Below, one piece after another: positions 3,942 through 36,589 of a stretch of DNA of 64,000 nucleotides (the first letter of the stretch is position 1; each line of letters begins with the position of its first letter). A program made the position numbers and the translations under genes. The DNA is taken from NCBI GenBank assembly GCA_028554645.1, contig JAQOOI010000022.1:186001-250000 (forward strand), written 5' to 3'. This stretch comes from Omphalotus guepiniiformis (taxonomy: Eukaryota > Basidiomycota > Agaricomycetes > Agaricales > Omphalotaceae). The notes under the pieces were generated by a model, which saw only the letters and a list, made by a program, of their open reading frames with translations, was not told the origin of the DNA and ran no database searches.

Positions 3942-3962
3942 AACTAGTTCTACTTTTGGGTT

Positions 3963-4936
3963 TTGACTCTGACCTGGCACGTTGTAATCTGTTTGAAGAT
4001 GCTCGTAACTTGTCTTCTTTGACGCTTATGTCACGAGTGTCACTGGTTCCTTTCACATTTCCGTACTCCCAACTTAAAGCGGCCGACTTGTTCCATGATG
4101 CCCGGGCCAATATATTGCCCCAATTTGGAAGCTCATTAGAGTCACTCGCTCTAGATTTCTTCCACTACAATCATCGGACGCCGATACCTCTGCACACCTT
4201 GCCTAATCTCTCGGAGCTGAAGTTGAAGCGATGCGCTACTGTCGATTGCTCGGGCATTTTTCGTGCTCTCACCTTGCCGTCGTTGAAAATTCTTCACGTT
4301 AATACATCAGGTAGGACATGCGACGGGACAATAGACGGGCTCAGCTTCCCAGAGTACAACGGGACCTCGAGAGAATGGCCTTTAGCCGAGTTCAGAACCA
4401 TGATTTCACGATCTGCATGCTCTCTGCAGGCTCTTCGCCTCACGGGCTGTTTACAGATACCTCGAAGTCAATTGCATGAACTTTTCAGCTTGATACCTAT
4501 GCTCACTTGCCTAGAAATGCAACTACTAGATGAAGAGACCTCTTCTGAGGTATACACTTTGCTTACAATTCAATCAAGCAAACAGCACATAGGCAATGTC
4601 CTCCTACCCTGCTTGATGGATTTCAAGATGAACAGTGACGAGGATGAGCTTGACGAGGAGATGAACAGTGACGAGGATGAGCTTGACGAGGATGAGCTTG
4701 CACAAGAATTTACTAACATGACCAAGTCAAGACAGCCCCCGTCAATTCCCGGTGTCGCTTTCCTCAGAAAGGCGACCTTCAATCGTTTGTGCGTGACTCA
4801 GGATTTTTCTCTGACAATAATCTTAGTTGTTTGTTATCTGATTAGGTACAGTTCAGTTGCAAGCGATGCAACCTATAATGATAACCCGACTTTGCTCGTC
4901 GGGCGCATGAGCCACCGCTACAATCTGCAGTTTTGA
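3963..4936 (+). pseudogene. F-box-like protein, 5'-truncated duplicate
   Basis: From the segment DLFEDARNLSSLTL onward this is almost identical to the C-terminal half of the intact F-box-like gene on the minus strand at 28738-30426. The F-box and N-terminal half are absent. Homology starts at about 3963, some 20 bp from the transposon end. The frame stays open to a stop at 4936. The copy lacks a few residues (SDQV) found in the intact gene and has an extra duplicated acidic run (DEDELDEE, twice) near 4630-4695. An internal intron at about 4790-4845 is likely, as in the intact copy. With no promoter or F-box it is probably not functional. Confidence 0.8.
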
Positions 4937-15465: not shown

Positions 15466-17215
15466 GATCAGCCCTCCTTCATCTCCTCCGAGTCCGGGGA
15501 GGAGGGTCCTTATCCTTCCTTATTCTTTGTCTTTTCCTCGCAGTTTTGCACGACGTCATCCACACGGAGGAAGGCAGTCGGTCGGGGCAACCTATGAAGC
15601 GGCAGAAGTCAGTCATGATTCACGCGTCATTGAGCAGAGGAGAGGAGAACAATGAGCACGATGCAGAGAAGTGATGGATCCTCTGCTCAAGTCCAGGAAG
15701 AGCGGACCAAGAAGAGCGGACTATGATAATACCCACCCTCAATGGCAGTTTTGAGCGTCGTCTGGGATCTAGAATTGGAACAGAGCCTGAGGCTGCGTAG
15801 AATGGCGAATCCGCGGAGAATAGACCCATGGATCAAGTACCCTCTGTCATTGGGACTGGGGTCACTGGGCGGACTCATACAGCCTATACGTCTTCAAGTT
15901 CATATCAATAATCATCCTCCTTGTCTCCCCAATTCTCCCGCCAGTTCTCGCCTTCGTCATTCGCATGTATTGCCTGATTGGACCGTATCAAAAGTCGAGC
16001 CAGAAAAGAGCGATTCATGCTTACCATATCCACCGCTGCTTAGGAAGAGTGCGAGGGATGACTGGGACACTCCATCGCCTCTGCGACGGCTCCAAATGAC
16101 CACCTTCGACGCCTCTGCGTGCGTCTTGATCTAAACCTCCCGGTGCCAACTTTTCGTTAAAGACAATGTTGCGACGCGTCCGCAAGGTTCCTGTCGAAAA
16201 ACAACCTCTGATTTTGACGGACAACAGTGCATGCACATGGTTTAGGTGCACACTACTCGGCGAGGTGAGGTGAGGTGAGGAAGGTACCTAGGCGAAAGAT
16301 GAACAAAAGTCAACTGGAAAGAAGAAGTTGGAATACGAGCAATGACGTACTCATTCCGTGTTTTCACGCCCCCACAATTCGTGCCCAAGGTAATGATATG
16401 CCCCATTCTCTTTTCGTTAAACACTGAGTGACCGTTTTTTTTTTTTGCCAATCTAAGGTCGTTGTAGTCGTTGTAGTTGTATCAACCACTGGGCGCAGAT
16501 AGATACCCTCTTGATCAAGGATTATCAATCATCTTCAAAATCGCTTTTGGCCCCAGAAACGTTCTGATTACATTGGGGAAAAAAAAGGTCTTCGGGACTA
16601 TGATGTTAGCGGTTGAAATCTATGAACTTTAACAATGAACACCTACTTTGACCAGGGGTAATGTTCAAGGTCTAGACTACCCACTTCTGCAAAATATTGA
16701 CGGCGCGGGATCAAATTTGGGGTAAGGGTGAAGACAACGTTGCGAGCGACGGACATGGCGTCAGCGAGATTCCTGTCAATCTCGTTCAGGATATCCTTGG
16801 AAGGACCACGAAGGACGATAGTGCATGCTTTGGGCGTTTCACTCTCGGTGAGGAAGGTGAAGTATCTGAGAAGAAGATAGAAATCAGCTGGAGAGTTGGA
16901 ATTCCAAGTATGTAGTGGCAACGTACATATTTTCTCGATGTTGAAAAGCCCACAATCCGTACCCACATCAGACTCGCGGAGGTCTTCCAAACGATTGACG
17001 ATAAGTGGCGCCGACCGCTAAAGCAACTCGGTTATTGTCTGATTTTCATACTCGGCGAATCGCAGAGATGTTGTGTTTAACCATGACGTGCTGGGCAAGA
17101 TCTTTGGGGGAAAAAAGAAAGAGGTCAGGCACAGAAAGATACGAAGAGTCAAATACCCTGACTCACCTGAAATATCCTTCTCATAGTGATCGACCCATCG
17201 TCATTATTGTTGCGA
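15466..17215 (-). pseudogene. Scrambled CCT3 (TCP-1 gamma) pseudogene
   Basis: A rearranged partial duplicate of the intact CCT gamma gene at 25236-27446. From low to high coordinate it holds three blocks. The first is the C-terminal region (15466-16180: the EEMKEG-like terminus, then VIPRTL and KLAPGG). The second is displaced 5'-exon material (16446-16700: matches to the LTNDG exon, the VIRTCLGPK exon and the AAK splice region). The third is middle-domain sequence (16700-17215: [47 protein letters not shown]). The 5' exons thus sit inside the 3' half. Frames are broken throughout. It lies head-to-head with AIM9-like copy 1, as intact CCT3 does with AIM9-like fragment 4. Confidence 0.8.
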
Positions 17216-17815: not shown

Positions 17816-19757
17816 ATGAAAATTCACTTTCATCTCAACCACTTTCGATGCCCTCAATCCAGGATTTACTCTTTTCTCACTCAAAAGTCCCATCACTTCG
17901 TCATACCAACATCTAAATCCCGGCGATATTCTACTTCATTCACAGACTCGGAGACGAGCCACGACGAGTTATTTGCACATACTACCGGCCGTTGGCTGTG
18001 TAATGAAGAAATTAGTACGTCAGCTGTGCTTTTTACGCCGTTGGGTATCTTAAATTGACTTATGACTCGTAGATCGAAGCTTGAGATATAAATCTTTCAA
18101 TGTGGGTGCACTAGAAGACATTGCATGCCGTAGCCTCAATGCTCAGCGTTGCGTCAGTTGAAAAAAACTAGGCGAAGGTATGTATCTTCAATACGTTCTT
18201 ATCCTGCTTCAAGTTTTCGTGACATGGTTTGCCAACTTGAATGCAGGTTCCTACAATAAAGTATTCGTTCTCGAATTCGATGACGGTCGAAAAGCAGCCC
18301 TCAGAATCCCGATGCTTATAGTCCCTAATGTCCAGATGACCACCGCTAGCGAGGTGGCTACAATGGAATACGTGCGCGAAAGATTCGTTGACCGAATTCA
18401 TGTACCAAAGCCTCCCAAAGTTTTTGCTTGGGATGGATCTCCGACTTGTGCCGCTGGTACACCTTATATCCTTCTTGAATACGTCGAAGGCGTCCCTTTG
18501 CTATCGAGGTGGTACAAGATACAAGGAGAAGAAGCTGCCGAGCCTATACGTAGCACGTTAATTATGGAGAGGGCATTGCTTACGGAACCGTTTTCTCGGC
18601 ACGGATCACTCTATTTTGCGACGGATGTCAGCGAAGAGTTGAGATCTTTTCCGTTGTACAGCAGCGAAGAGCACGCGTCCGGTTATGCTCCTCTAGCAGA
18701 AAAGTATAGAATTGGTCCCACCGTTTTTCGGGAATGGTGGAGAGATTGTTACGAGAACGTAGAAGGAAGCCGAGGACCTTGTAAGTTGCGCTGTAATGCT
18801 TTGGTATAAAGTTGCTCTCTCAGTCGGCATGCTTCTAGGGCCTGACATGCAATCCATAATTCGAAGTGCAGTCCAATTACAGTTGCAAGCTATTGAAGAC
18901 GGTGTCGCGTTACAAAATCCCTACATTCGTTCCGCTCCATCTGACATTCCAGAAATTCGACGTCTACTGGGATATTGCATCGCCATTGCCGACTACATCA
19001 TTCCTTCCGACATTAAACATAGTACCCGACCAGCACTCAACCATCCCGATATCTCGCTCACCAATTTCATCGTTGCCCCAGAGGGAAACGCAGAAATCCG
19101 CGGTGTCATAGATTGGCAAAGCGCTTCTGTCTTACCATTTTGCTCTCAAGGAGGACTACCTAGTACCATAGGGTATAACGAGGCAATTATCAAGATACCC
19201 AGTGATCCTGATGAAGATATTCCTTGGCCGGAAGATTTTGATGGTATGTCTCCGAGAAGCAGGAAATTGTTCGCGTGCATCATCGGCTTGCGACTCGGAA
19301 GAGATGGTATAGTAAACTTATATCTATGGCGCATCCAGAGCGAGATATTATGTTGGACTTGCCTCACCTGGTACCCCTTGCGGATTTGGTCAATCTAATC
19401 ATCCGGTCAGTCGCGGACGGTCCACGTGAATTGCGCGAAGTTTTGCTTGATGTAAAGGTTCTCTGGGAAGTAATTGTTTCATTATCCGGTCATGATCAGG
19501 AAGGACCCTGTCCCATCGACTTCTCACCTGACGAAGTAGAAGCGATTCGTCGAGAGAGGAAAGTACGGGGGATTTACGAGAAGAATGAAGAATACCTTTT
19601 CTTGGATGTTGGGTGTACGCCTGATGGGTGGGTTGAGCATGAGATGTATGAGGATGCTAAAGAAAAGATGGGGATACGGAGGCGAGAGTGGAATGATGAG
19701 GAGATGGGAGGACGATTCCCGCTGTATGAAGGGGCATGGTGGTGCAATCTTTCGTGA
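17816..19757 (+). pseudogene. AIM9-like mitochondrial phosphotransferase, copy 1 (broken)
   Basis: Same four-exon layout as copies 2 and 3. Exon 1 encodes a presequence-like N terminus (MKIHFHLNHFRCPQSRIYSF) and HTTGRWLCNEE. Exon 3 carries SYNKVFVLEFDDGRKAALRIP and PYILLEYVEGVPLLSRW. Exon 4 carries NHPDISLTNFIV and IRGVIDWQ, the catalytic-loop and metal-binding motifs of the APH-fold kinases. Two lesions are visible. In exon 2 the conserved Trp codon of RCV(S/G)WKK is TGA. In exon 4 one base is missing near 19252-19256, after FDGMSP, which shifts the rest into another frame (HHRLATRKRWYS). The ending EGAWWCNLS is otherwise conserved. Probably a recent pseudogene. Confidence 0.85.
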
Positions 19758-19971
19758 TCAAGTAGCTCTAGTCTAAGCATATATTTTGACTTCCGAAGTG
19801 CTGGTAGGCTCAAGGGTGAATGTATGCCAGACCTTATTACAGGGGCACTTTGTGAGTGGGCGCTTACAATATGTTGAAGTTCTTGCTACACAGATACAAA
19901 CACGTTTCACGCGCACGCGCACTCAGACTTTGAATTGAATTAAGGCAAACTTGGCCTGAACCTTTCAAAAG

Positions 19972-20146
19972 TGTTAAGCCACTGTGACCTCGGAGTAGGA
20001 AAAGGGACGGACCGGGGATTGAACCCGGGACATAGTCTAACCCGGAGACATGCTCTACCACTGAGCTATCTGTCCATAGGGTTACGGCATGTGTTATAGA
20101 CTAAGTAACGGGGATTTCCACTTAGATCTGTGACAGAGTTACAACA
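19972..20146 (-). repeat. TRIM 3' LTR (element orientation)
   Basis: 175-bp copy identical by eye to 20266-20440 at a constant offset of 294 bp. TG...CA termini with imperfect terminal inverted symmetry: TGTTAAGCCACTGTGAC at one end against TGTTGTAACTCTGTCAC read from the other. Confidence 0.88.
20005..20075 (-). tRNA. tRNA-like Pol III unit inside TRIM LTR (copy 1)
   Basis: A 71-nt cloverleaf can be drawn. The acceptor is GGACAGA against TCCGTCC with one A-C mismatch. The D stem is GCTC/GAGC. In the anticodon stem four pairs GTCT/AGAC hold and the outer pair fails. The T stem is CCGGG/CCCGG with loop TTCAATC. The A box TAGCTCAGTGG (20058-20068) and B box GGTTCAATCCC (20015-20025) fit Pol III consensus. 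A TTTT terminator follows one base after the acceptor stem (20000-20003). The anticodon loop CCGGGTT would read GGG but lacks U33 and a purine at 37, so it is probably not a translating tRNA. Confidence 0.55.
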
Positions 20147-20154
20147 CACCCCCA
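20147..20154 (-). other. TRIM polypurine tract
   Basis: Minus-strand TGGGGGTG abuts the 3' LTR, where the plus-strand-DNA primer is expected. Confidence 0.6.
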
Positions 20155-20254
20155 TAAGTGGATACCCGTGACCACTTTGGTCCATGAATGTCACGCTTTA
20201 TGCTCCTGAATCTCCGCCAACTCGGGTTGAATACCGGTTATGTTGGCACATGTT

Positions 20255-20265
20255 TGCTGCTACCA
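20255..20265 (-). other. TRIM primer binding site
   Basis: Minus-strand TGGTAGCAGCA lies with no gap after the 5' LTR. Its complement ends GCTACCA. That is the 3' end expected of an initiator-Met tRNA, with A73 and U at 72 (an A1-U72 pair is the initiator hallmark). The exact tRNA match needs the genome tRNA set. Confidence 0.6.
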
Positions 20266-20440
20266 TGTTAAGCCACTGTGACCTCGGAGTAGGAAAAGGG
20301 ACGGACCGGGGATTGAACCCGGGACATAGTCTAACCCGGAGACATGCTCTACCACTGAGCTATCTGTCCATAGGGTTACGGCATGTGTTATAGACTAAGT
20401 AACGGGGATTTCCACTTAGATCTGTGACAGAGTTACAACA
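20266..20440 (-). repeat. TRIM 5' LTR (element orientation)
   Basis: Identical partner of 19972-20146. In element orientation transcription would read from 20440 downwards, placing the tRNA-like segment at LTR positions of about 72-142. Confidence 0.88.
20299..20369 (-). tRNA. tRNA-like Pol III unit inside TRIM LTR (copy 2)
   Basis: Identical to the unit at 20005-20075, carried by the other LTR, with the same A box, B box and T4 terminator. The same reservation applies: the anticodon loop lacks U33 and a purine at 37. Confidence 0.55.
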
Positions 20441-20590
20441 AAAAGGTATGGTAATGATATCTTGAATCTCTGAGCTTTTTCCTCCATAACTCCATGGAAA
20501 TCTTCGACGAAACATCAGAGGCTTCCGAGCCGGGCATCACTGCGGTCGGAAGACAAAAAGGGACCCACAATTGACCCACAGGGTTGAAGC

Positions 20591-22491
20591 ATGACTATTT
20601 TCCTTCGTATCAACCGCTTTCAATGCCCCCAGGCTAGGATTCTATGGTCTCAGAAGTCTCTCTTCGTTACGCCGGCCTCTAAAGTAGTAGCGCAATACTC
20701 TACTGCGTCGAAAGAAACAAGCCACGACGAGTTGTTTGCGCACACTACTGGTCGTTGGCTTTGTAACGAAGAAGTTAGTAAGTCAGGTTGTTTTTATGCC
20801 ATTACGCATACTGATGATTCGTAGATCGAAGGTTGAGATACAAGGCTTTTAATGTGGCTGCACTAGAAGACATTGCATGCCGTAGCCTCAATGCTCAACG
20901 TTGCGTTGGTTGGAAAAAGATAGGCGAAGGTATCTTCATTGCGCTAAGTTCTTCTCCTGCTTTTTGTGACATGGCTTTCAGGTTCCTACAATAAAGTATT
21001 CCTCCTCGAATTCGATGACGGCCGTAAAGCCGCTCTCAGAATCCCAATGCCTATCGTCCCGAATGTCCAGATGACCACCGCTAGCGAGGTGGCTACAATG
21101 GAATACGTGCGCGAAAGATTTGCTGACCAAATCCCTGTACCAAAGCCGCCCAAAGTCTTTGCTTGGGATGGATCTCCAACTTGTGCCGCGGGTACACCTT
21201 ACATTCTTCTTGAATACATCGAAGGTGTTTCCTTGCTTTCGAGGTGGTACAAGATACAAGGAGAGGAAGCTGGCGTGCCTTTTCGCAGCATGTTGCGCAT
21301 GGAAAGGTGTTTACTCAAAGAGCCTTTTTCTCAACATGGTTCACTCTATTTTGCCACGGATGTCGGCGAGGAATTGAAATCTCGTCCATTGTACAGCGAC
21401 GAAGAGCACGCGTCCGCTTATGCTGCTCTAGCAGAAAAGTATAGAATCGGTCCTACCGTTTTTCGTGATTGGTGGCGAGATTGTTACGAGAACGTAAAGG
21501 GAAGTCGAGGACCTTGTAAGCTGCTCTATATTAGTTCAGTCTGAACTCGCTCACTTATTTGGCATTGCCTCTAGGGCCTGACATGCAATCCATAATTCGA
21601 AGTGCCGCCCACTTACAACTACAAGCTATTGCAGACGGTGTTGGATTGCAGAATCCTCACGTTCGTTCGACTCCATCTGACATCCCAGAACTTCGACGTC
21701 TACTAGGGTATTGTATCGCCATTGCCGACCATGTCATTCCTTCTGACATTGACCATACCCGGCCAGCGCTGAATCATCCCGATATTTCTCTCAATAATCT
21801 CGTCGTTGCGCCAGAGGGAAACGCAGACATACGTGGTGTCATAGACTGGCAATACGCATCTATCCTCCCATTCTGTTATCAAGCTTGTTTGCCCTACGCA
21901 ATAGACTATGACGAGGCAGTTATCAAGATATCCGATCATTCTAGTGATGATATACCTTGGCCGGAAGATTTTGATAATATGTCTCTCGAGGAACAAGAAT
22001 TTGTTCGCGTGCACCATAGGCTTGCGACTCGCAAGAAGCGGTATGCCAGCGTTATAGCTCTAGCGCACCCAGAAAGATATCTTGCGTGGTGCTTGCCCCA
22101 CATAAGGCCTCTTGCGGACTTGGTCAACATAATCATTCGTTCAGTTGCGGACGGTCCACGCGAATTGCGTGAAACTTTGCTGGATATCAAGGATCTTTGG
22201 GAGGAAATCATCCCACTCTCTGGCCAAGAAGGACACGTACCCTGTCCCATCAAATTTTCACCTGAAGATGTAGAAGCGATTCGTCGAGAGCAGGAGGTGC
22301 AAAACCTTTACGAGCAAAATAAACAAGCACTCTTCAAAGACATTGGTTGCGAGGGTGATGGTTGGGTTGAAAATGACATGTTCGAGGAGGCTAGAAAGAA
22401 GATGGAGACACGGAAGCAAGAGTGGAACGACAAGGAGATGGGTGGTCCCTTCCCGCTGTATGAAGGGGCATGGTATTACAATCTTACATGA
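20591..22491 (+). CDS. AIM9-like mitochondrial phosphotransferase, copy 2
   Basis: Intact four-exon gene: 20591-20777, 20825-20929, 20982-21515 and 21575-22491, together 580 codons plus stop, with all junctions GT-AG and in frame. The N terminus is basic and Arg/Ser-rich up to VVAQYSTASK, suggesting a mitochondrial presequence. FAHTTGRWLCNEE follows, then the nucleotide-binding lobe SYNKVFLLEFDDGRKAALRIP and the hinge PYILLEYIEGVSLLSRW. The catalytic loop is NHPDISLNNLVV and the metal-binding strand IRGVIDWQYA. The C terminus is LYEGAWYYNLT. This is the Altered-inheritance-of-mitochondria-9 type of APH-fold kinase, whose substrate is not established. It is the middle member of a tandem array, with the TRIM element in its upstream spacer. 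Confidence 0.88.
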
Positions 22492-23034
22492 TTGGGTCGA
22501 TAGCGAAATAAATGATTTGACTTGGTCACTGACACAGGTCACTGCTCCGAGTCAATACTTTCATCGTATCGCTGGTTATGCACAATTCGACTCGTGCTTC
22601 GTATATGGAGCCTTTAGCCTCCACAAGTAGCTTTACTACACAGAAGGCACGAGAATTCGGGGTATGCTGTAGTTGTAATGGTAAACTGTTTTGAGTGGGC
22701 GCTTACAAAATATCGAAGTTCTTGCTAAGTACACAGATACAAATACCCCGCACTGCTTCACGTTCAACGTTCAACTTCTGTTCAACATTCAATTTCGACT
22801 GCAATACTACTGATATATGTAACGAGACAATCAAGGCAAAGGCTGGGCAAAGGTCACCTTTCAGAAGGTAATGTAGTGATGTCCTGAATCCTTTAGCTTT
22901 TCTCAGCTCCACGATAACCTCTGACGAATCATCGGACGACGGAGGCCTCGCCGGGCGTCGGAAGGCGAAAAGGGACCCACAAAGGCTGGCTGGCAGTTGA
23001 CCTGGCAGGTTGACCCTAGGTAGACCCAAAGGCA

Positions 23035-24944
23035 ATGACATGCATGAATATTTTCTTTCGCATCAACCACCGCTTTCAGTATCCCCAGGCTAGGATTCTG
23101 TGGTCTCAGAAGTCTCTCTTCGTCACGCCGGCCTCTAAAGTAGTTCAATATTCTACTGCGTCGAAAGAAACCAGTCAGAACGAGTTGTTCGCCCACACTA
23201 CCGGTCGTTGGCTTTGTAACGAAGAAGTTAGTAAGTTAGTTGTGTTTATGCCATTACGCATACTTATGATTCTTAGATCGAAGCTTGAGATACAAGGCTT
23301 TTAATGTGGCTGCACTAGAAGACATTGCATGCCGTAGCCTCAATGCTCAACGTTGCGTCAGTTGGAGAAAGCTAGGCGAAGGTATGTATCTTCAATGCTT
23401 TCTTCCCCTGCTTTCCGTGACGCGGCCATGGCTTGCAGGTTCCTACAATAAAGTATTCGTCCTCGAATTTGATGATGGCCGTAAAGCTGCACTCAGAATT
23501 CCGATGCCTATCGTCCCTAATGTCCAGATGACCACCGCTAGCGAGGTGGCTACAATGGAATACGTGCGAGAAAAATTCGCTGACAACATCTATGTACCAA
23601 AGCTGCCCAAAGTTTTTGCTTGGGATGGATCCCCGAATTGTGCTGCGGGTACACCTTATATTCTTCTTGAATACGTCGAAGGCGTTCCCTTGCTATCGAG
23701 GTGGTATAGCATACATGGACAGGAAGCTAGCGCGCCTATACGCGGCATGTTGCACATGGAAAACCATTTATTTTGGGAACCATTTTCTCAGCACGGATCA
23801 CTCTATTTTGCCACAGATGTCAGCGAGGAGTTGAAATCTCTTCCGCTGTACAGCAGCGAAGAGCATGCGTTTGTTCATGCTGCTCTAGCGGAAAAGTATA
23901 AAATTGGTCCCACCGTTTTCCGTGAATGGTGGCGAGATTGCTACGAGAACGTCAAGGGAAGTCGAGGACCTTGTAAGTCTGTACTGATTTAGTCTGAACT
24001 TGCTCACTCTTTTGGCATTGATTCTAGGGCCTGACATGCAATCCATAATTCGAAGTGCAGTCCAATTACAACTACAGGCCATCGAAGATGGTGTCGCGTT
24101 ACAGAATCCCTTCATTCGTTCCACTGTATCTGACATCCCAGAACTTCGTCGTCTACTGGGATATTGTCTCGCAATTGCCGACTATGTCGTTCCTTCTGAC
24201 ATCGACCATACCCGACCGGCACTGAATCATCCTGATATATCGCTCCGTAATGTCATCGTTGCGCCAGAGGGAAACGCAGACATACGTGGTGTTATAGATT
24301 GGCAATGCGCATCTATCCTTCCACTCTGTACTCAGATAAGCTTGCCTAGTGCGATAGACTATAATGAGGCAGTCATCAAGGCATCCAATCATTCCGGTGA
24401 AGATATACCTTGGCCAGAAGACTTTGATAATATGTCACCCGAGGAGCAAGAAATCGTTCGCGTACACCATCGGCTTGCCACTCGCAAGCAATGGTACGCA
24501 AGCCTTATATCCAGGGCGCACCCAGAGAGATATCTTGCGTGGAGCTTGCCCCACATATTGCCTCTTGCGGACTTGCTCAACGTAATCATTCGGTCAGTTG
24601 CGGACAGTCCACGCGAATTGCGTGAAATTCTGCTCGATATTAAGGATCTTTGGGAGAAAATCATCCCAATATCTGGTCGGGAAGAACACGTACCGTGTCC
24701 CATCGACTTTTCACCTGAAGAAGTAGAAGTGATTCGTCGAGAGAGGAAAGTACGGGAGGCTTACGAGAAGAACAAAGAACACCTTTTTTCAGATATTGGG
24801 TGCTCTCCTGATGGTTGGGTTGAAAATAACATGTATGAGGAGGCTAGAAAGACGATGGAGAGACGGAGGCGAGAGTGGAATGATGAAGCAATGGGAGGAC
24901 CCTTCCCACTTTATGAAGGGGCATGGTGGTACAATCTTTCATGA
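23035..24944 (+). CDS. AIM9-like mitochondrial phosphotransferase, copy 3
   Basis: Intact paralogue of copy 2 with the same four-exon layout. MNIFFRINHRF starts a presequence-like segment and HTTGRWLCNEE ends exon 1. NRSLRYKAFNVAALEDIACR and RCVSWRKLGEG form exon 2. SYNKVFVLEFDDGRKAALRIP through WWRDCYENVKGSRGP is exon 3. PDMQSIIRSAVQLQLQ, NHPDISLRNVIV, IRGVIDWQCA and EGAWWYNLS are in exon 4. No stop or shift is seen. The start may be 23035 or the second Met at 23044. The upstream spacer keeps the repeat-unit signature and the empty TRIM site. It is the last intact copy before the convergent, minus-strand CCT3 gene. Confidence 0.88.
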
Positions 24945-25235: not shown

Positions 25236-27446
25236 TCAGCCCTCCATCATCTCCTCTGGTGGAGGCCCTTGTCCTTGCTCTTTGTCTTTCCTCACAGCTT
25301 GTACAACGTCATCGACACGGAGAAGCATTCGGGCAGCCTGTGAAGCGGTAGAAGTCAGCCATGAGTCACACGGCATTGAGCAGAGGAGAACAAGGAGAAC
25401 GTTGCAGAGAAGTGATGAAACCTGCTCAATTCCAGGAAGAACGGACTGATACTCACCTCAATGGCAGTTTTGGGCGTCTGGATCTAAATTTGAAACACAA
25501 TTGCTTAGAATGGCGAATATGCGGAGAATAAACCATAGGCCAAGTACCTTGACACTGGCGGACTCATACAGCCCATACGTCTTCATATCAACAATCTTTC
25601 CTGTCTCTCCATTAACGCCCCATGAATTCTCGCCATTCGCGTGTTTTGCCTAAGTGAACCGCGTCAACGTCGAATTCGAGAGGAAGAGCGAAATCATGCT
25701 TACCCGAAGCTCAGTAAGAACCCTGATAGCATTTCCACCACTGTTCTGGACGAGCGTGCGCGGAATGACCTCCATGGCCTCTGCGACGGCTCTGAATGGC
25801 CACCCTTCGACGCCGACAACGCTCCGTGCCTTTGCTTGAAGCCCGACACTGATGGCCATCTCTGTGGCACCACCTCCCGGTGCTAGCGTAGGGTTGAAGA
25901 CAACGTTGCGAGCGACAGACATGGCGTCAGCGAGATTCCTGTCAATCTCGTTCAGGATATCCTTAGAAGGACCACGGAGGACGATAGTGCATGCTTTGGG
26001 CGTTTCACACTCGGTGAGGAAGGTGAAGTATCTGAGAAGATGATAGAAAAAAAATCAGCTGGGATGAGAGTTGATATTCGAAGTAGTGGGAACGTATTCG
26101 TCCCCTATTTTCTCGATGTTGAAAAGCCCACAATCCGTACCCACATCAGACTCGCGGAGGTCTTCCACGCGATTGACGATAGTAGCGCCGACCGCTAAAG
26201 CAATTCGATTGTTGTCTGATTTTCGTACTCGGCGAATTGCAGAGATGTTGTGTTTAACCATGACGTGCTGGGCAAGATCTGAAAAAGAAAGGGGTCAGGG
26301 CACAGAAAGATACGAAGAGTTAAATACCCTGACGCACCTGAAATGCCCTTCTCAGTGATGACCAAGTCCGGCTTGAATTCCAAGATCTTCGTAACCATAG
26401 CCTTTACCTGCTCTTCCTCGATATCCTGGGCCCTTTGCCAGTCACCCTCCCTCGAGAACTCCATATTCGTCTGCGACTCTCCCTTCTTGTACTCAAGCGG
26501 GCAATCCAGCAAGACAATCCTCGGATTCGCAATCCTACGCCTCATCGACGGATGTGTGATGTCCTTGTTCAACATAACCCCATTCAAAACACGACTCTGC
26601 TCGATCTCGCCCCCAGGAATTTTCTCCACACGTGCATAGCGCTTGATGTCGACGGTCTTGATATTACCGTCGTCTTGCGCGACAACGCGCACTGCTTGCA
26701 GGGCAAGCTTACACATGAGGTCCGACCAGCGCATAACGAACTTTGTGCCAATGGAAGTTTTGATGAGCGAGAGCATCTCTTCGTCTTTGGTGACGTCTAT
26801 GGGCACCGATATGCGCTTGATGATCTCTAGGGCTTCTTTTAGGGCTTTGTTGTAGGCGGAAATGATGACGACAGGATGTATATCTCTCTCGAGCTGAGAC
26901 AGTGACTGGGCAAGGATTTCACCGGCTGTGAAAGGTACATGAGAGACGCGCCCCTCACAAGAAAGAGAAGATCTACGAACCGAGAATAATTACACTTGTC
27001 GTCCCATCTCCGCATTCCTCATCCTGCGTCCGACTAAGTTCTATCATGTTTTTTGCAGCTGGATGTGCAACGTCAATTTCTCGTAAAATCGCATTTCCAT
27101 CATTTGTCAATCTAAGGTCGTTCATGTCGTATCAGAAATCCACGAAAAACCAGATAGATATTTTCTAGCGCACAGTATGCCTCCCATAGGATCTAGAATC
27201 ATCTTCAACATCGATTTTGGCCCCAGACACGTTCTGATTACATCTGCAACAGTCTTCAATAAAATTAATGATAGAAGTCTATGAGATCCAGTTATAAAAA
27301 CCTACTTTGGCTGCGGTTATGTTTGAGATCTGAGCTTTACGACCAGACTGCCTTTCAGGCGCGGTATCTGCAAAGTATTCAGTTTCTTCTCGGGCCTTTC
27401 AGGACTTTGACATATTCATTACGAAAACTGGTGTTTGTCCCGACAT
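25236..27446 (-). CDS. CCT3: T-complex protein 1 subunit gamma
   Basis: Subunit of the cytosolic CCT/TRiC ring chaperonin that folds actin, tubulin and many WD40 proteins using ATP. On the minus strand it begins [11 protein letters not shown]. The exons give [37 protein letters not shown], the nucleotide-binding [20 protein letters not shown] and [13 protein letters not shown], and the gamma-specific [70 protein letters not shown] and the terminus [12 protein letters not shown] follow. About nine introns. The first intron boundary after VMN is unclear: no canonical junction keeps the frame. Full family length and order. It is head-to-head with the decayed AIM9-like fragment. Confidence 0.93.
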
Positions 27447-28483: not shown

Positions 28484-29672
28484 GTTTAATACTGGTTAAT
28501 CGTATTGTCTGACTGAGCACTACTAAATACTTTCCTGCCGTCGCAATCGATACACTCCGAGACCTTGCTTCCTCCAATCAAATCTTCCTCCTTGTATGCG
28601 CTCATTTCACTTCCCCATAATTGTCGCAGCGTTCCCATAAACAGACCCTCCACAAGTATACCTTTACCCCGCTTCATCAGAGGTCAAACCAAACACCATA
28701 TCTCGAGCAAACCATCTTCCTTTTTTCTCCTCATAGTTCAAATCCACAGATTGTAGTGGTGGCTCATGCGCCCGACGAGCAAAGTCGGGGTATCACTATC
28801 GGCTTCATCGCTTGCAACTGACCTGTACCTAATCAGATAACAGACAACTAAGATTCTTGTCAGAGAAAAATCCTGAGTCACGCACAAACGATTGAAGGTC
28901 GCCTTTCTGAGGAAAGCGACACCGGGAAATGACGGGGGCTGTCTTGACTTGGTCATGTCAGTAAATTCTTGTGCAAGCTCATCCTCGTGACTGTTCATCT
29001 TGAAATCCATCAAGCAGGGTAGAAGGACATTGCCTATATGCTGTTTGCTTGATTGAATTGTAAGCAGAGTGTATACCTCAGAAGAGGTCTCTTCATCTAG
29101 TAGTTGCATTTCTAGGCAAGTGAGCATAGGTATCAAGCTGAAAAGTTCATGCAATTGACTTCGAGGTATCTGTAAACAGCCCGTGAGGCGAAGAGCCTGC
29201 AGAGAGCATGCAGATCGTGAAATCATGGTTCTGAACTCGGCTAAAGGCCATTCTCTCGAGGTCCCGTTGTACTCTGGGAAGCTGAGCCCGTCTATTGTCC
29301 CGTCGCATGTCCTACCTGATGTATTAACGTGAAGAATTTTCAACGACGGCAAGGTGAGAGCACGAAAAATGCCCGAGCAATCGACAGTAGCGCATCGCTT
29401 CAACTTCAGCTCCGAGAGATTAGGCAAGGTGTGCAGAGGTATCGGCGTCCGATGATTGTAGTGGAAGAAATCTAGAGCGAGTGACTCTAATGAGCTTCCA
29501 AATTGGGGCAATATATTGGCCCGGGCATCATGGAACAAGTCGGCCGCTTTAAGTTGGGAGTACGGAAATGTGAAAGGAACCAGTGACACTCGTGACACTT
29601 GGTCCGAAAGTGTCAAAGAAGACAAGTTACGAGCATCTTCAAACAAATCACAATGTTGCAGGTCAGAGTCAC
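28484..29672 (-). repeat. Inverted segmental duplication, copy B
   Basis: Minus-strand counterpart of 3963-5173, covering the 3' half of the intact F-box gene plus its downstream flank. It joins directly to the iPGM fragment at 28482. Confidence 0.85.
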
Positions 29673-30426
29673 ACCTGATCGAGATCTCCAATTCTGTTAA
29701 ATTGGGGAAATAACCATTGAGGGGACGGGGTTGTCTTCGTAGTATGTCCTGCGCCATGTCCAAGAAGTCGGTTTCGTTATTCAGGGTTGCGGAGTACCAT
29801 CTATCGGCTCCAGAAAGCAGCAGCTCAAGTATCTCCGTGCATTTGGTAAAATCTTTTTGATACTCATATATATGAAGTGAGAGGGGAGCTGGGTGGGACA
29901 TGAGGAGGTAATGAGAAATCAAGCTGGGACACATGGCATTCAAGGGTATACGCCAGCCAGTACCACCCCATAGTCGGGGCATTGACCGGGTGGTATGCCT
30001 CCAACGACGACAGACCTGTGAGATACGCAAGACGATAAGAGGAGTGGCTCGATAAAAATTTACAGGGTCATCGACAGACAGCGTGAAAATCTCGCTCCAG
30101 ATTTCAACAGGTATTCGTCGTACAGGGGCAAACAGCCCTTTTGCCAGGTCATGGCTTCTCTGTAAGGCCTTGCGAGCGTTATGAAGTCGATGAATTTCAT
30201 CTTCAAGGCGAAGAATTTCGTCGTCGAAGCGATGGATTTTCTCCGCCGCTTCGTCGACGTATCGTAAGATTCGGGAGACATCAATGCCATCAGGAATAGT
30301 TTCACTGCGATGTAGCGCCTTGATTGAGGCCTCGTCAAAAACTGTATCGGTCTCGGAATCATGGCGATCGTCGTTGGAAGGAGATTTGCTACAGGTAGGA
30401 TGCTCCAGAAGAGAAGGGCTCTGCAT
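28738..30426 (-). CDS. F-box-like protein
   Basis: A 562-codon frame starting MQSPSLLEHPTCSKSPSNDD. Residues about 55-95 form a coiled coil (EEIHRLHNARKAL-type heptads). Residues about 99-155 are an F-box-like domain (VRRIPVEIWSEIFTLSVDD, ISQVCRRWRHTTRSMPRLW), which would bind Skp1. The rest is leucine-rich, LRR-like sequence (LPNLSELKLKRC, LPSLKILHVNTS, CSLQALRLTGCLQIPRSQL), the presumed substrate-binding part of an SCF ubiquitin ligase. An intron starting GTGCGTGACTC near 28900 and ending ATTAG probably joins FNRL to YRSVASD. F-box/LRR genes of this shape are greatly expanded in Agaricomycetes. The 3' half exists again at 3963-5173. The target is unknown. Confidence 0.8.
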   Translation of the reverse strand: MQSPSLLEHPTCSKSPSNDDRHDSETDTVFDEASIKALHRSETIPDGIDVSRILRYVDEAAEKIHRFDDEILRLEDEIHRLHNARKALQRSHDLAKGLFAPVRRIPVEIWSEIFTLSVDDPVNFYRATPLIVLRISQVCRRWRHTTRSMPRLWGGTGWRIPLNAMCPSLISHYLLMSHPAPLSLHIYEYQKDFTKCTEILELLLSGADRWYSATLNNETDFLDMAQDILRRQPRPLNGYFPNLTELEISIRCDSDLQHCDLFEDARNLSSLTLSDQVSRVSLVPFTFPYSQLKAADLFHDARANILPQFGSSLESLALDFFHYNHRTPIPLHTLPNLSELKLKRCATVDCSGIFRALTLPSLKILHVNTSGRTCDGTIDGLSFPEYNGTSREWPLAEFRTMISRSACSLQALRLTGCLQIPRSQLHELFSLIPMLTCLEMQLLDEETSSEVYTLLTIQSSKQHIGNVLLPCLMDFKMNSHEDELAQEFTDMTKSRQPPSFPGVAFLRKATFNRLCVTQDFSLTRILVVCYLIRYRSVASDEADSDTPTLLVGRMSHHYNLWI

Positions 30427-30884: not shown

Positions 30885-31170
30885 TGTTGAATATTTATAT
30901 ACCCATGGGCACTTTAGTTAGCAATGGACACTCTAGATACACGCATGAGTAGCTACAAACATGGACCAAGTACGATAGCTTTGATTACATCGTCGGCCTG
31001 CGGCCGACGCTCTCTCTTTATTCCGCCGTTTCATGCACAAACTTGTACATACACATGTCCTTGCTTATAGGGTAGATTCGGACCATCGGGCACCTCAGAC
31101 GCTCCTTACGCAGCGCTCTGAGTTTCTCTGTTTATTCTACAGATTCCTCGAAGCGCTTTATATCTCTATA
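30885..31170 (+). repeat. Copia 5' LTR
   Basis: 286 bp starting TGTTGAATATT and ending TCTCTATA, so the 3' end is TA rather than the usual CA. Matches 36304-36589 at a constant offset of 5419 with no difference seen. Confidence 0.95.
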
Positions 31171-31184
31171 GGTTATGGGCCCCG
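31171..31184 (+). other. Copia primer binding site (half-tRNA type)
   Basis: GGTTATGGGCCCCG lies directly after the LTR. It is complementary, with one transition, to the anticodon-arm sequence CGGGGCTCATAACC typical of initiator-Met tRNA. This is the internal half-tRNA priming known for Drosophila copia and yeast Ty5, rather than 3'-CCA priming. Confidence 0.65.
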
Positions 31185-31245
31185 AGCCCCGCTGCTAAAC
31201 CGAAAAAGATTTTATTTGTCTCACTAAAAATTCCCCTGTCCAACT

Positions 31246-34200
31246 ATGTCTTCCGTCTCCGAGGCTGGTGCTGAAGCTGGTGCTGAAGCCGTAGCTCGAA
31301 CTTCGACACCCACTCCTTCCGCAAGGCTCCAACGAATGACTGAAGAAGTCGCCCCACTTCCCTCAGCTTTCATTTCACCTGCCGAGCCATTGACCAACCA
31401 AACACACTTTTCGCATCGAGCCGATTACTTCTCGAAAGTTCCAAATGTCATTCCTGATGGTTCCAACTTCACCATATTTCGAGAGCGCTGGAACATCGCT
31501 GCGTCTGCTGCTGGTATCTCCCACCTGTTCCTGATGAGCTTTGTTCCCCCAACGAGGCCCGAAAACCCAGCCGCAGCCGACTATAGCACGAAACTGTCCA
31601 TACACAATCACTGGACCCAGCTCGAAAGCCAGGCCCGCTCCATGCTCTGTGATCGCCTCGATGATAATCTCATGCGGAAGGTTACTAGGAATGCTAATAC
31701 TGTCCGTGACATTTGGCTGAACCTAGTGCGAGAGGTACAGGTCAAAACTGAGGTTAAAGTTTCCCAAATGAAAGCCAAATGGGAGGCTCGTACCTGTGGA
31801 ACAAACGTGGATCTACGTAAATTCTTGGAAGAAGACGACTTAATTGTTGACAATATCCTTAATGCTGGAGGAGAAGTCAGCAACGTCGAACATCGATCTC
31901 ACATCCTAAAATCCTACCGAAAGAGTACCGAAAGTTCGCCAACACTATGATCGAAGGTGCTGCTCTTGTTGGAGCAGCTGTCGCTACCGAAGATCTAATC
32001 GACGCCATTAAAAGGCATTACGACTTCCTAATCGACGAGGAGAAAGGTCATAGTGGAAAGAGCAAAGAGAAGGATAAGGATGTGGCTCTCACAGCCGAAG
32101 AGCGCAGAGGATCAGGTTCAGGAAGGGATAAGGGAAAGGGAAAGGGCAAAGGCCCTGTGTGCTACGGATGTGGTAAACGTGGCCATATTCGTCGTAATTG
32201 CCCTGATGGCGACTCCAAAAGGGATAAGGAGAAGTCAAGAGAGGGTGATGGCGAAAAGGGGAGGAAAGGGAAGGAGAAAGAGAAGGATGTGGCGAAGTCG
32301 TCGAGAGGAGGCGCAAATGCTGTCGAAGAGGAAGACTTTGCATATCTTGCTATGTCTATTGATTCTGATTCATCCTCTGACTCCAACGATGGAGAAACCG
32401 AAGCATCTAGCATCTTCGAAGATGATGATATCGACTTCTTGGATGGTCTCCCAGACCTTCAGCCCATTACCGACTCCGAATCTGAAAGCGAAAGCGACAA
32501 TGAAGACGAGGCTCCCCCCAGTCAAAGGCATCACCTAGACATCCCTGAAGGTCTCCTCAACTCTCCTGAGGAAATCGACGCTCGTATGGACTCAATAAGA
32601 GCGTACATGTCTACTGTAGACAACAACGAAGCTATAGATCCTTCCATGCCTGATGGGATGGAAGTATTTGATGCAGAAGCTGATCTACTCAACGAGATAG
32701 ATAGCCTTGGTTCGACGCTCAGCGATGCTGAACTGCGCAAGCTATGGCATGCCAACGGGATCATCGCAGCTGGAAAGTGTCTCGTACTGTCCCAATGGAA
32801 GCACGATTTCCATCCCCTCAGAGAAGTGGTTGCTGGGCCTGCCGACTATCGCTATGCGCTCAACGAGAGCAACTGCGGGTACGAGAACTATCTCGAGTCA
32901 TTGCGCAGTGACGAAAATGAAGAGAAATGCGAGGAAAAAGGGGAGTATCAACGACATGGTGCATATGACCTCTATATCGCGTCTGATGAGGTCCTATTCG
33001 CACCCGAAGCTGCCACGCATGTCGCTGATGACAGTGACAGCAACGCTAAGCCATCTATTGTACTCGACTCTGGGTGTTCAAAACATATGACACCCGATAA
33101 GTCTCTATTCGACGAGACACCTCGACCCTGCTCTCCAAGAGCTTTCCGAGCAGCTAACCGTGACGTCCTAACCGCCACGCGTAAGGGCGAAGGATGTATC
33201 ATGTTCAATGACGAGAATCATCGCCTCGACCTGCCCAATGTACTCTATGTACCCGAATTATCCAACACACTCATCTCCGTCGGCTGTCTCGACGACGCTG
33301 GATACCATATCAACTTTGGTGATGGAAAGGCTGTCATTATTGACCCAGCCGGAAAGGTCGTTGGCACGATCTACAAGTCAAATGGCCTATACAAGCTTGT
33401 CAATCCTCCTGAAGGTGGTATACATTCGGTTGAGCGAATTACCTTGGATGAATTCCATCGAAGGATGGGTCATATCTCCCGCACGGCAGCCCGTAAACTT
33501 GTCGAGAATGGCTTTGTAGAAGGGGTTCAGCTCACTGACACTGACAACAACTCCCAATGCGAGACGTGCGTGTTCGCGAAGGCAATTCGCAAGTCTGTAC
33601 CGAAGCAACGACGAGGGGAGCGAGCAACGTCGTTCGGAGGAAACGTCTTCTCAGACGTTTGGGGACCGTCGTCAACAGAGTCGAAGGGTGGCAGGCGATA
33701 TTTCGTCACGTTCACGGACGACTACTCTCGTCTCACCCACATCTACCTCCTGCGTCAGAAAAAGCGAGGTGTATGAGTCCTTCCTGATGTATGAAGCATG
33801 GGTGCTGAATCACCTAAAAGCTGTCATTAAAATCTTTGACAACAGATGGTGGTGGTGAATTCATGGGGGATGAATTCGCTACTCACTTGAAGCTAAAAGG
33901 GACAGTCCATCGTGTTACAGTACATGACACACCCGAGGAGAACGGCATCTCTGAACGTCTCAACCGTACCCTACTCGAGCGCGTCCGTGCCATCCTTCAT
34001 GAGAGTGGTCTACCAAAGTACTTGTGGGCTGAAGCACTGAGACATGCGGTGTGGTTGAAAAACCGAACCTCCACTCGCATATTGGATGGTCGTACACCAT
34101 ATGAAGTCGCCTATAACGCAAAACCCAACCTCGCGAACGTACCCGTCTGGGGCTCGACGGTATATGTTCATTCACCGGGTAACAGCAAACTCTTGCCTCG

Positions 34201-36296
34201 CGCGCGTACTGGCCGTTGGGTTGGTTTCAATGACGATGCTGGAAGTGCCCGTAGTTAGCAAAGGTCATCATCGCATTTACTGGTCCGATACTCGTACCGT
34301 CACGGTCGAACGTTCCGTATGGTTCTCTGAAGCTGAAGCGGCTGCTGGCAGTGAGGGGGAGAGAGAGGTTGTGGAAGACGAAAATTTCAACTCCATCAAC
34401 AATGGACCCACAACACCAAACGACACTGCCGCACCTCGCGTGACCGAAGACGATCCGGCTATAACGCCCTCGATAGTAGCCGACGATCCAGACCCTGTGG
34501 AAGCTCGACCTAAACGCCACGTTAAACCCTCTGCGTACGCGCGTCGTCTTCTGGATGGAGAGGGCACGCAAACAGGCACCGGACGGACGAAAACGGTTCT
34601 GCCTCGCGGCATGAACGTCGAGTCTGCCCTTCAACAGCCCAACGAGGAGAAGGAGGAATTGCCGGACGAAGGATTGGTGATGGAAGCCGCCATGGCTGAG
34701 GCTGAGGGGATCGAGCCGAGGAATCTAGCTGAGGCGAAGAGGTCGAAGGATTGGTTGAAGTGGAAGGGTGCAATAGATGAGGAGCTGAGGAACCTGATGG
34801 AACATGGCACCTGGGACGTAGTCGACAGGCCGGAACACGCCAATGTCGTAGGCAGCAAATGGGTTTTCAAGGTAAAGAAGAACGAGCACGGCGCAGTTGA
34901 CAAGTACAAGGCACGTCTCGTCGCCCAGGGTTTCACGCAACAGTACGGCGTCGATTTCACGGAGACGTATGCCCCTGTAGCTCGTCTATCCTCCATTCGC
35001 GTTGCTCTCGCCCTTGCTGCTCGTTACGACCTCGAGATCCATCAGGTGGATGTAAAGGGAGCATACTTGAATGGAGATCTCATTGAAAATGAGGTTATCT
35101 ACCTTAAGCATCCTCCGGGCTATCCCATGTCTCCACAACCACATCGCACCGTACTCCGGCTCAAACGACCATTGTATGGCTTGAAACAAAGTGGGCGCTA
35201 TTGGTATATCAAGTTCGGCAAGACGTTGAAGGACTTGCTTGAGATGGAGCGCTGCGAAGTAGACCAGTCTGTCTTCTTTCGTCAGCGAGATGGCGAGCTC
35301 ATAGTCATTCTTACTTCTGTTGATGACCTCACCATTATTGCCTCTAGTATCTCCCTCATCAACCTAGTCAAGTCGAAGCTGCGAGAAGCGTTCACGATCA
35401 CGGATTTAGGCGAACTTCATTGGATCCTAGGCATTCAGGTCATGCGAGACCGTAGTCGTCGTATAATTTCCCTCTCGCAGCGAGCGTACATCGAGTCGGT
35501 CGTACGAGACTTTAAACAGGATTCAGCGAAGCCATCGGCTATACCAATGGCCACCCATTCTTTGCTCACCAGTGCCCAATGTCCACAGACTCCAGAGGAA
35601 CATGAAGCAATGAAGGACGTGCCGTACCGTGAGGTAGTTGGCAAGCTGATGTACGCATGCGTAGGGACTAGGCCCGATATAGCGTATGCGGTTCATACGT
35701 TGGCGCGATTTGTGTCAAACCCCGGTCGTATTCACTTTGAAGCGGCGTTGCGAGTGGTCAGGTACCTCAGTGGTACCAAGGATTGGTCTCTCACCTATGG
35801 TGAGAGTAATGAGGATCCTACAGGCTTCGTCGACGCGGACGGCAGCATGAACGATGATCGTCGTGCCATCACTGGCTACGTTTTCATCATAGATGGAGGC
35901 GCTGTTAGCTGGTCTTCTCGTTCCCAAACTCTCGTCTCGCTTTCTACAGCCGAATCAGAATACGTCGCAGCCACAGATGCTTCTAAGGAGGGTATCTGGA
36001 TTCGTTCGCTTGTCTCGCAGACATTTGAACCGACTTTCGTCATTATCGGCACCACGAGTACGAAGCTGAACTCAGATTCCCAGTCTGCCATCGCTATCTC
36101 TCGCGACCACCAATACCATGGCCGTACGAAACATATTGACATTCGTTATCATTTCATTCGCTACGTCATCGAGGAGGGGAAAATCACTCTCATTTATTGT
36201 CCTACGGAGGAAATGGTTGCGGATGCGCTTACGAAGGCGCTACCTAGCGCGAAGGCTAAGCACTTCGCCTCTAAACTCGGACTTGGTCCAGTTTGA
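31246..36296 (+). pseudogene. Copia gag-pol polyprotein (frame-disrupted)
   Basis: Gag starts MSSVSEAGAEAGAEAVARTS and includes LDDNLMRKVTRNANTVRDIW. A CX2CX4HX4C zinc knuckle (CYGCGKRGHIRRNC) lies near 32160. The protease active site is LDSGCSKHM (33064). The integrase has the HHCC module (HRRMGHI ... CETC) and catalytic D, D, E (DVWGP, TDDYSR, DGGGEF). The reverse transcriptase has QVDVKGAYLNGDL, LYGLKQSGRYW and TSVDDLTI. RNase H has VDADGSMNDDRRAITGY and SLSTAESEYVA. Single-base frame changes are at about 31908-31915, 33759-33763 (A run), 33835-33837 (T run) and 34231-34250. The stop at 36296 overlaps the polypurine tract. Confidence 0.92.
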
Positions 36297-36303
36297 GGGG
36301 GAG
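36295..36303 (+). other. Copia polypurine tract
   Basis: GAGGGGGAG immediately before the 3' LTR; primes plus-strand DNA synthesis. Confidence 0.8.
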
Positions 36304-36589
36304 TGTTGAATATTTATATACCCATGGGCACTTTAGTTAGCAATGGACACTCTAGATACACGCATGAGTAGCTACAAACATGGACCAAGTACGATAGCTT
36401 TGATTACATCGTCGGCCTGCGGCCGACGCTCTCTCTTTATTCCGCCGTTTCATGCACAAACTTGTACATACACATGTCCTTGCTTATAGGGTAGATTCGG
36501 ACCATCGGGCACCTCAGACGCTCCTTACGCAGCGCTCTGAGTTTCTCTGTTTATTCTACAGATTCCTCGAAGCGCTTTATATCTCTATA
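36304..36589 (+). repeat. Copia 3' LTR
   Basis: Matches the 5' LTR base for base by eye and is followed by the CTTCA target duplicate. Confidence 0.95.

Follow-up and report, generated by a model that had tools for sequence, protein, structure and literature searches.

The question raised by this locus is how an element of only 469 bp that carries a tRNA-like gene in each of its LTRs can be transcribed and mobilized, and whether such an element is new to the fungi. The window that was analyzed is a stretch of 64,000 nucleotides from Omphalotus guepiniiformis. The features of the element, together with its target-site duplications and a related site that lacks it, are as follows:

19972..20440, minus strand: whole TRIM element, 469 bp, with at least four full copies in the genome at 99.6-100% identity
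20266..20440, minus strand: 5' LTR, 175 bp, TGTTGTAAC...GGCTTAACA (TG...CA), from repeat comparison
19972..20146, minus strand: 3' LTR, 175 bp, identical with the 5' LTR, from repeat comparison
20147..20265, minus strand: internal domain, 119 bp, the sequence between both LTRs
20254..20265, minus strand: PBS TGGTAGCAGCAA, complementary at 12 of 12 nt to the 3' end of the host initiator tRNA-Met plus CCA
20147..20156, minus strand: polypurine-tract-like sequence TATGGGGGTG, directly 5' of the 3' LTR, from position and composition
20298..20369, minus strand: tRNA-like segment of the 5' LTR, 72 nt, from ARAGORN and Rfam
20004..20075, minus strand: tRNA-like segment of the 3' LTR, 72 nt, from ARAGORN and Rfam
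20352..20362 (5' LTR) and 20058-20068 (3' LTR), minus strand: A box TAGCTCAGTGG
20309..20319 (5' LTR) and 20015-20025 (3' LTR), minus strand: B box GGTTCAATCCC
20292..20298 (5' LTR) and 19998-20004 (3' LTR), minus strand: CTTTTCC, with a T4 run directly behind the tRNA
20385..20393 (5' LTR) and 20091-20099 (3' LTR), minus strand: TATA-like sequence CTATAACAC, of presumed role
19967..19971, no strand: left target-site duplication, AAAAG
20441..20445, no strand: right target-site duplication, AAAAG
22829..23297, plus strand: paralogous empty site, a tandem copy of the flank without the element, from alignment across the insertion point

The two direct repeats of 175 nt (19972-20146 and 20266-20440) were found to be 100% identical, with 294 nt from start to start. 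A TRIM consists of two LTRs, is shorter than about 1 kb, and is non-coding; with LTRs of 175 bp and an internal part of 119 bp, the element has the size of a TRIM. On the minus strand, the LTR at 20266-20440 leads into the PBS, and the purine tract leads into the LTR at 19972-20146. This strand is therefore the sense strand of the element, and the tRNA-like segments, which also lie on it, are in the sense orientation. The TATAA of the putative upstream promoter begins 23 nt upstream of the tRNA start in the LTR. The sequence-only reading had described identical 175-bp LTRs, each with an A box, a B box, and an immediate TTTT, and a tRNA in the sense orientation of the element. The repeat comparison, the sequence of both LTRs, and the placement of the PBS and the purine tract confirm these points. 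Its 71-nt cloverleaf is upheld by Rfam and ARAGORN as a tRNA-type segment and is corrected in length, as the match covers 72 nt.

A search of the host assembly (42.5 Mb) returned at least four full copies, including the one in the window, and at least one solo LTR, with 5 of 5 candidates matched. The full copies are 99.6-100% identical to one another, and the two LTRs within each of the four differ at 0, 0, 1, and 0 of 175 positions. Perfect 5-bp target duplications flank all five insertions (AAAAG, CAGAG, CAGAG, GCAAC, and GAGGC, in the orientation of the locus), and the five sites are spread over four contigs. The flanks of the two CAGAG sites share no similarity at an E value of 1e-5, and thus these are two separate insertions. 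Further full copies and a solo LTR with differing target duplications, for which a search had been proposed, therefore exist in the host genome. The tRNA segment is kept in all of the copies found (four full copies and one solo LTR), so that neither an isolated occurrence nor copies devoid of this segment, two of the outcomes named beforehand as speaking against the proposal, was encountered in the host genome. The element is a real and recently active mobile element.

The element is part of a tandem array of three gene units, and the next unit provides the empty site. When the flanks are joined with a single AAAAG and compared with 22829-23297, the alignment is 74% identical over 484 columns, of which 65 are gap columns; its left arm is only 34 nt long, and the target of the paralogue reads AGAAG once. 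The region contains further duplications, and the two direct repeats, spaced 294 bp apart, could also be read as a degenerate tRNA gene whose surroundings were duplicated locally in tandem, with no transposon involved. This reading is hardly credible, and it is refuted by the perfect 5-bp duplications at five sites on four contigs, by the solo LTR, and by the empty site.

The solo LTR differs from the LTR of the element by 12 substitutions and one deleted base, and it is older than the full copies. Five of the 12 substitutions are at CpG positions, and the CpG count has fallen from 7 to 2. Eight of the 12 lie within the tRNA segment, where the A box and the T4 are untouched and the B box carries one substitution (LTR position 131, the tenth of 11 bases) that leaves the GGTTC core intact. 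As there are only 12 changes in all, the sparing of the boxes has little weight either way. A C to T change at LTR position 34 is common to the solo LTR and both LTRs of one full copy (L004), which indicates either at least two source lineages or the ancestral state. One other full copy (L002, 1326-2765) and the solo LTR (L005, 1301-1875) lie inside ankyrin-repeat coding DNA. Two of five insertions are too few for any claim of targeting.

The tRNA-like segment could serve as a promoter, as a tRNA, or as both. Both LTRs match the Rfam family RF00005 with 47.8 bits (E value of 3.9e-07, model positions 1-71), and these two are the only matches in the 64-kb window that reach the gathering score of any Rfam family. 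Scoring the LTR as a tRNA had been suggested as a check, and the result is well above the RF00005 cut-off of 29; a score no better than random was not obtained. ARAGORN identifies a tRNA-Pro with the anticodon GGG on the minus strand in both LTRs of the window and, among the matches listed, in the LTRs of other full copies as well. The full copies have intact A and B boxes. In the tRNA body, 4 of 5 pairs are present in the anticodon stem and 6 of 7 in the acceptor stem, and the anticodon loop, CCGGGTT, places C at position 33 and U at position 37. Position 37 of a tRNA is a purine as a rule. The C33 by itself says little, because the host initiator tRNA also has C33. The cloverleaf lies 1.8 kcal/mol above the best fold and is no better than shuffled sequences (z-score of -0.85). 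For four host tRNA controls, the cloverleaf is within 0.2 kcal/mol of the best fold in three and 2.6 kcal/mol above it in one, and since this control has a gap larger than that of the element, the fold energy is not decisive for tRNA function.

A functional tRNA-Pro(GGG) gene, spread by the TRIM and enlarging the host tRNA supply, would agree with the ARAGORN calls and with an Rfam score above the cut-off. Against this, 59 of the 63 genomic tRNA matches that were scored (the best 63 of 1950 candidates) have a higher Rfam score than the element; these 63 are not a census, and many are on contigs with mitochondrial-looking tRNAs. The U37, the anticodon stem that is one pair short, and the acceptor mismatch point in the same direction. 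No parent tRNA gene was found in the genome, as all nine DNA matches to the 72-nt segment (9/9) are the element's own copies. We consider a working tRNA-Pro very improbable. The segment resembles a promoter more than a tRNA, and the tRNA-like gene in each LTR is most likely the promoter of the element. The "complete" tRNA gene of the earlier reading stands in its promoter part, and is less convincing as a working tRNA given the flaws in stem and loop. In the same survey, contig C50 was found to carry AT-rich, mitochondrial-looking tRNAs arranged as mirror-image pairs around approximately 74,680, and contigs C80 and C64 have matches that score equal to those of C50. The mirror pairs perhaps reflect a long inverted duplication, either real or made by the assembly.

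The sequence-only reading had suggested that a tRNA-bearing fungal TRIM was without a described equivalent. This is not the case. In 2024 Kojima (PMC10886601) described a class of elements named Helenus from fungi, including the Agaricomycetes, proposed a role for Pol III, and joined Helenus with Cassandra and Ajax as TRIMp3. Like the element, fungal Helenus are TRIMs of less than 1 kb with no coding capacity, a tRNA-like segment with A and B boxes in both LTRs, a PBS and a PPT, 5-bp target duplications, and solo LTRs. The Helenus box motifs (TRGCY and YGG for the A box and GGTTC for the B box; PMC10886601) are found in TAGCTCAGTGG and GGTTCAATCCC. The tRNA match in both LTRs, the PBS with 12/12 nt, the PPT by its position, and the 5-bp duplications at 5/5 sites agree as well. 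Since every Helenus structural feature with a clear test result is present, the element belongs to a known group, and as far as can be told it would be of the Helenus type, set beside the published families by description rather than by sequence. The tRNA body of Helenus is mostly judged to be non-functional on account of disagreeing isotype calls by tRNAscan-SE, and that of the element has its flaws in stem and loop, the fold energy not being decisive. Both kinds of primer site are reported for fungal Helenus (PMC10886601): in most the primer site corresponds to the tRNA anticodon loop, whereas in the element, as in some of the families, it corresponds to the 3' end of the initiator tRNA. Copia is inferred as the partner of fungal Helenus, whereas no Copia relative was found for the element among the elements examined here. 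In a search of open-access journal papers, nothing on Helenus or TRIMp3 was found beyond Kojima 2024 and three papers whose titles are unrelated.

Two other groups were considered. The plant Cassandra is likewise a TRIM with a small-RNA gene and with a Pol III promoter and terminator in its LTRs (PMC7215508), and its PBS starts with TGGTA (TGGTATCAGAGC), like that of the element. Cassandra is a plant element that carries 5S rRNA, and transcripts from its Pol III promoter are reported (PMC10886601), whereas the element carries a tRNA and resides in a fungus. Membership in Cassandra was rejected because the LTRs hold no 5S rRNA, the tRNA matches being the only ones at gathering score in the window. 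A tRNA-derived SINE similarly combines a tRNA-derived Pol III promoter with a short non-autonomous retroelement (PMC10886601); this identity is ruled out by the two LTRs and the fixed 5-bp duplications. The LTRs, PBS, PPT, and fixed 5-bp duplications together indicate an integrase-type insertion and not target-primed reverse transcription.

It is less clear how a full-length RNA of the element would be made. A tRNA-type Pol III unit ends at the first good run of T residues. If the stop at T4 were perfect, only an RNA of 75-80 nt would be formed, and the Pol III route would give the element no means of copying itself; with a terminator directly behind the promoter of the 5' LTR, either the life cycle includes read-through or the genomic RNA is a Pol II product. 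The "immediate terminator" proposed earlier is indeed a T run directly behind the tRNA, and it has only four T residues, with that of the 5' LTR needing read-through for a full-length RNA. Apart from these two T4, the sense strand of the element has no stretch of three or more consecutive T. This is new here, and a leaky stop at these sites could allow the formation of a full-length RNA. The probability that such stretches are missing between the two T4 was determined to be 0.15 with dinucleotide shuffles and 0.027 with mononucleotide shuffles, and TTT is also missing from 175 of 4394 window slices of 290 nt; the absence of other T runs is thus weak evidence. Wild-type Pol III in extracts of S. 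pombe continues past 2T-4T, and efficient termination is seen at 5T-8T (PMC4982682). Read-through in vivo is known for many S. cerevisiae tRNA genes and is stronger where the terminator tract is short (PMC4937561). Among 19 host tRNA genes (taken as nuclear by contig), 7 have no run of more than four T within the next 40 nt, and T4 is not clearly a weak terminator in this host.

The best explanation as a whole is probably a Helenus-type TRIM that follows the TRIMp3 idea of Kojima (2024) and is presumably transcribed by Pol III. The earlier proposal of a TRIM whose LTRs contain a tRNA-type Pol III promoter holds for the anatomy, and its transcription by Pol III has the standing of an inference. 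In the 5' LTR, Pol III would start at the tRNA-like segment or shortly upstream of it and pass the weak T4; it would then cross the internal domain and stop in the 3' LTR, at its T4 or further on. In this case the tRNA-like segment forms the R region of the RNA, with a U3 of approximately 70 nt and a U5 of 28 nt. Reverse transcription would be primed by the initiator tRNA, reverse transcriptase and integrase would be supplied in trans by an autonomous LTR element, and the tRNA body would act as a promoter and not as a decoding tRNA. A more specific version can be advanced only tentatively and is somewhat unlikely to hold in full: the RNA would be made wholly by Pol III through a leaky T4, which is passed in the 5' LTR and stops enough of the transcripts in the 3' LTR; the tRNA body would serve as R for strand transfer; and the enzymes would be supplied by some element that is not one of the half-tRNA-primed Copia elements seen in this host.

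The main competitor, and a serious rival to the Pol III reading, is a TRIM with a Pol II promoter at the TATA-like sequence of U3, in which the tRNA/SINE cassette would be a chance passenger, an insulator, or a chromatin opener. The position of the TATAA upstream of the tRNA fits this proposal, as does the expectation that a working T4 would shorten Pol III transcripts, the host having tRNA genes with no longer run behind them. The single substitution in the B box of the solo LTR can be cited in its favor, and TRIMs without a small-RNA gene are taken as Pol II elements, termed TRIMp2 (PMC10886601). On the other side, the boxes are the conserved part of Helenus LTRs according to Kojima (PMC10886601), and the solo LTR retains its A box, T4, and B-box core, an argument of little power with 12 substitutions. 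A TATA upstream of the tRNA would fit transcription by Pol III as well. We regard transcription by Pol II as unlikely on balance and favor the Pol III route of a Helenus-type element. Pol III transcription of Helenus is likewise an inference in PMC10886601, where, in the portion of the text available, the word "terminator" occurs once, for Cassandra, and the terminator is not treated for Helenus.

The primer site offers an approach to the partner that would supply the enzymes. Four host tRNA-Met genes were found by pattern, which we take to be initiator genes from the A1-U72 pair and the general sequence. The first 12 internal nt of the element (TGGTAGCAGCAA) are complementary to the 3' end of this tRNA plus CCA with no mismatches. 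The Copia element in the window (30885-36589) has identical 286-bp LTRs, a target duplication of CTTCA, and an RVT_2 match, and GGTTATGGGCCCCG behind its LTR is complementary to the anticodon arm of the initiator tRNA, which constitutes a half-tRNA primer site. In the list of open reading frames, the coding part of this Copia is spread across three or more frames. A match of 10-17 nt to the anticodon arm was found in eight of nine Copia upstream regions and no match in one; these nine comprise eight chosen from 99 RVT_2 matches plus the window Copia, and some are of one family. The anticodon-arm primer site GGTTATGGGC... was seen in 7 of the 8 fetched Copia regions (L078-L085). The matches suggest that half-tRNA priming may be common among the Copia elements of this host. 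A 3'-end initiator primer site was absent from all nine of the Copia upstream regions sampled. The difference between the primer site of the element and the half-tRNA site of the sampled Copia elements (8/9) is new here, and the same tRNA is thus used at different places, at its 3' end by the element and at its anticodon arm by the sampled Copia.

The genome was searched for an autonomous element with the primer site of the TRIM. AACATGGTAGCAGCA occurs at 4 places, all within the four full copies (control 0). CATGGTAGCAGC occurs at 12 places (control 11), of which 4 are the element, and inspection of the other 8 by eye gave no LTR end resembling that of the element. For TGGTAGCAGCAA there are 10 places (control 6), 4 of which are again the element, and no clear LTR was seen by eye at the other 6. 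The search with TGGTAGCAGC gave 98 places against 112 for the control, and hence no excess. These places were crossed with 90 of 99 RVT_2 matches, the 9 dropped being further pieces within 3 kb of those kept, and with 150 RVT_1 matches (the best 150 of 227 candidates). On the same strand, the 10 kb downstream of each TGGTAGCAGC are free of reverse-transcriptase matches, the nearest of the matches listed being at 10.1 kb. The upstream regions of 8 of the 150 RVT_1 matches contain no initiator-tRNA match of 9 nt or more, a weak result since their PBS was not located and their identity as Gypsy was unchecked. Neither the LTR nor the internal part is similar to the autonomous Copia and RVT_1 regions examined (best E value of 0.33). 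An autonomous LTR partner with a 3'-end initiator primer site was thus not found among the Copia and RVT_1 elements examined, and Copia as the mobilizing partner in the host genome is neither confirmed nor excluded by the sampled elements.

The observation itself holds and has good support, unlike the claim of novelty, and the remaining interest is in a clean and young case for the questions of Pol III and the partner. With a young and compact element of Helenus type, its initiator tRNA, its copies, and an empty site at hand, the claim of a genomic RNA made by Pol III becomes easier to test. The element also raises the problem of a terminator behind the promoter in the 5' LTR, which we have not seen treated for Helenus in the available portion of PMC10886601. 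Predicted tRNA counts of fungi may be inflated by such elements, as has been shown for the Pucciniales (PMC10886601).

Several duplications were noted in the neighborhood of the element. The three tandem units extend over 17923-24944 with a spacing of approximately 2.5 to 2.8 kb and are 61-95% alike in pieces; a sub-threshold APH (phosphotransferase) match was obtained with one of their reading frames, the only one scanned. The array is flanked by duplicates at 16722-17103 and 25888-26280, which are 94-96% identical and approximately 9.17 kb apart. On opposite strands and approximately 24 kb apart, the reading frames at 3956-4936 and 28738-30426 appear by eye to be nearly the same over a long part, and the longer of the two is F-box-like.
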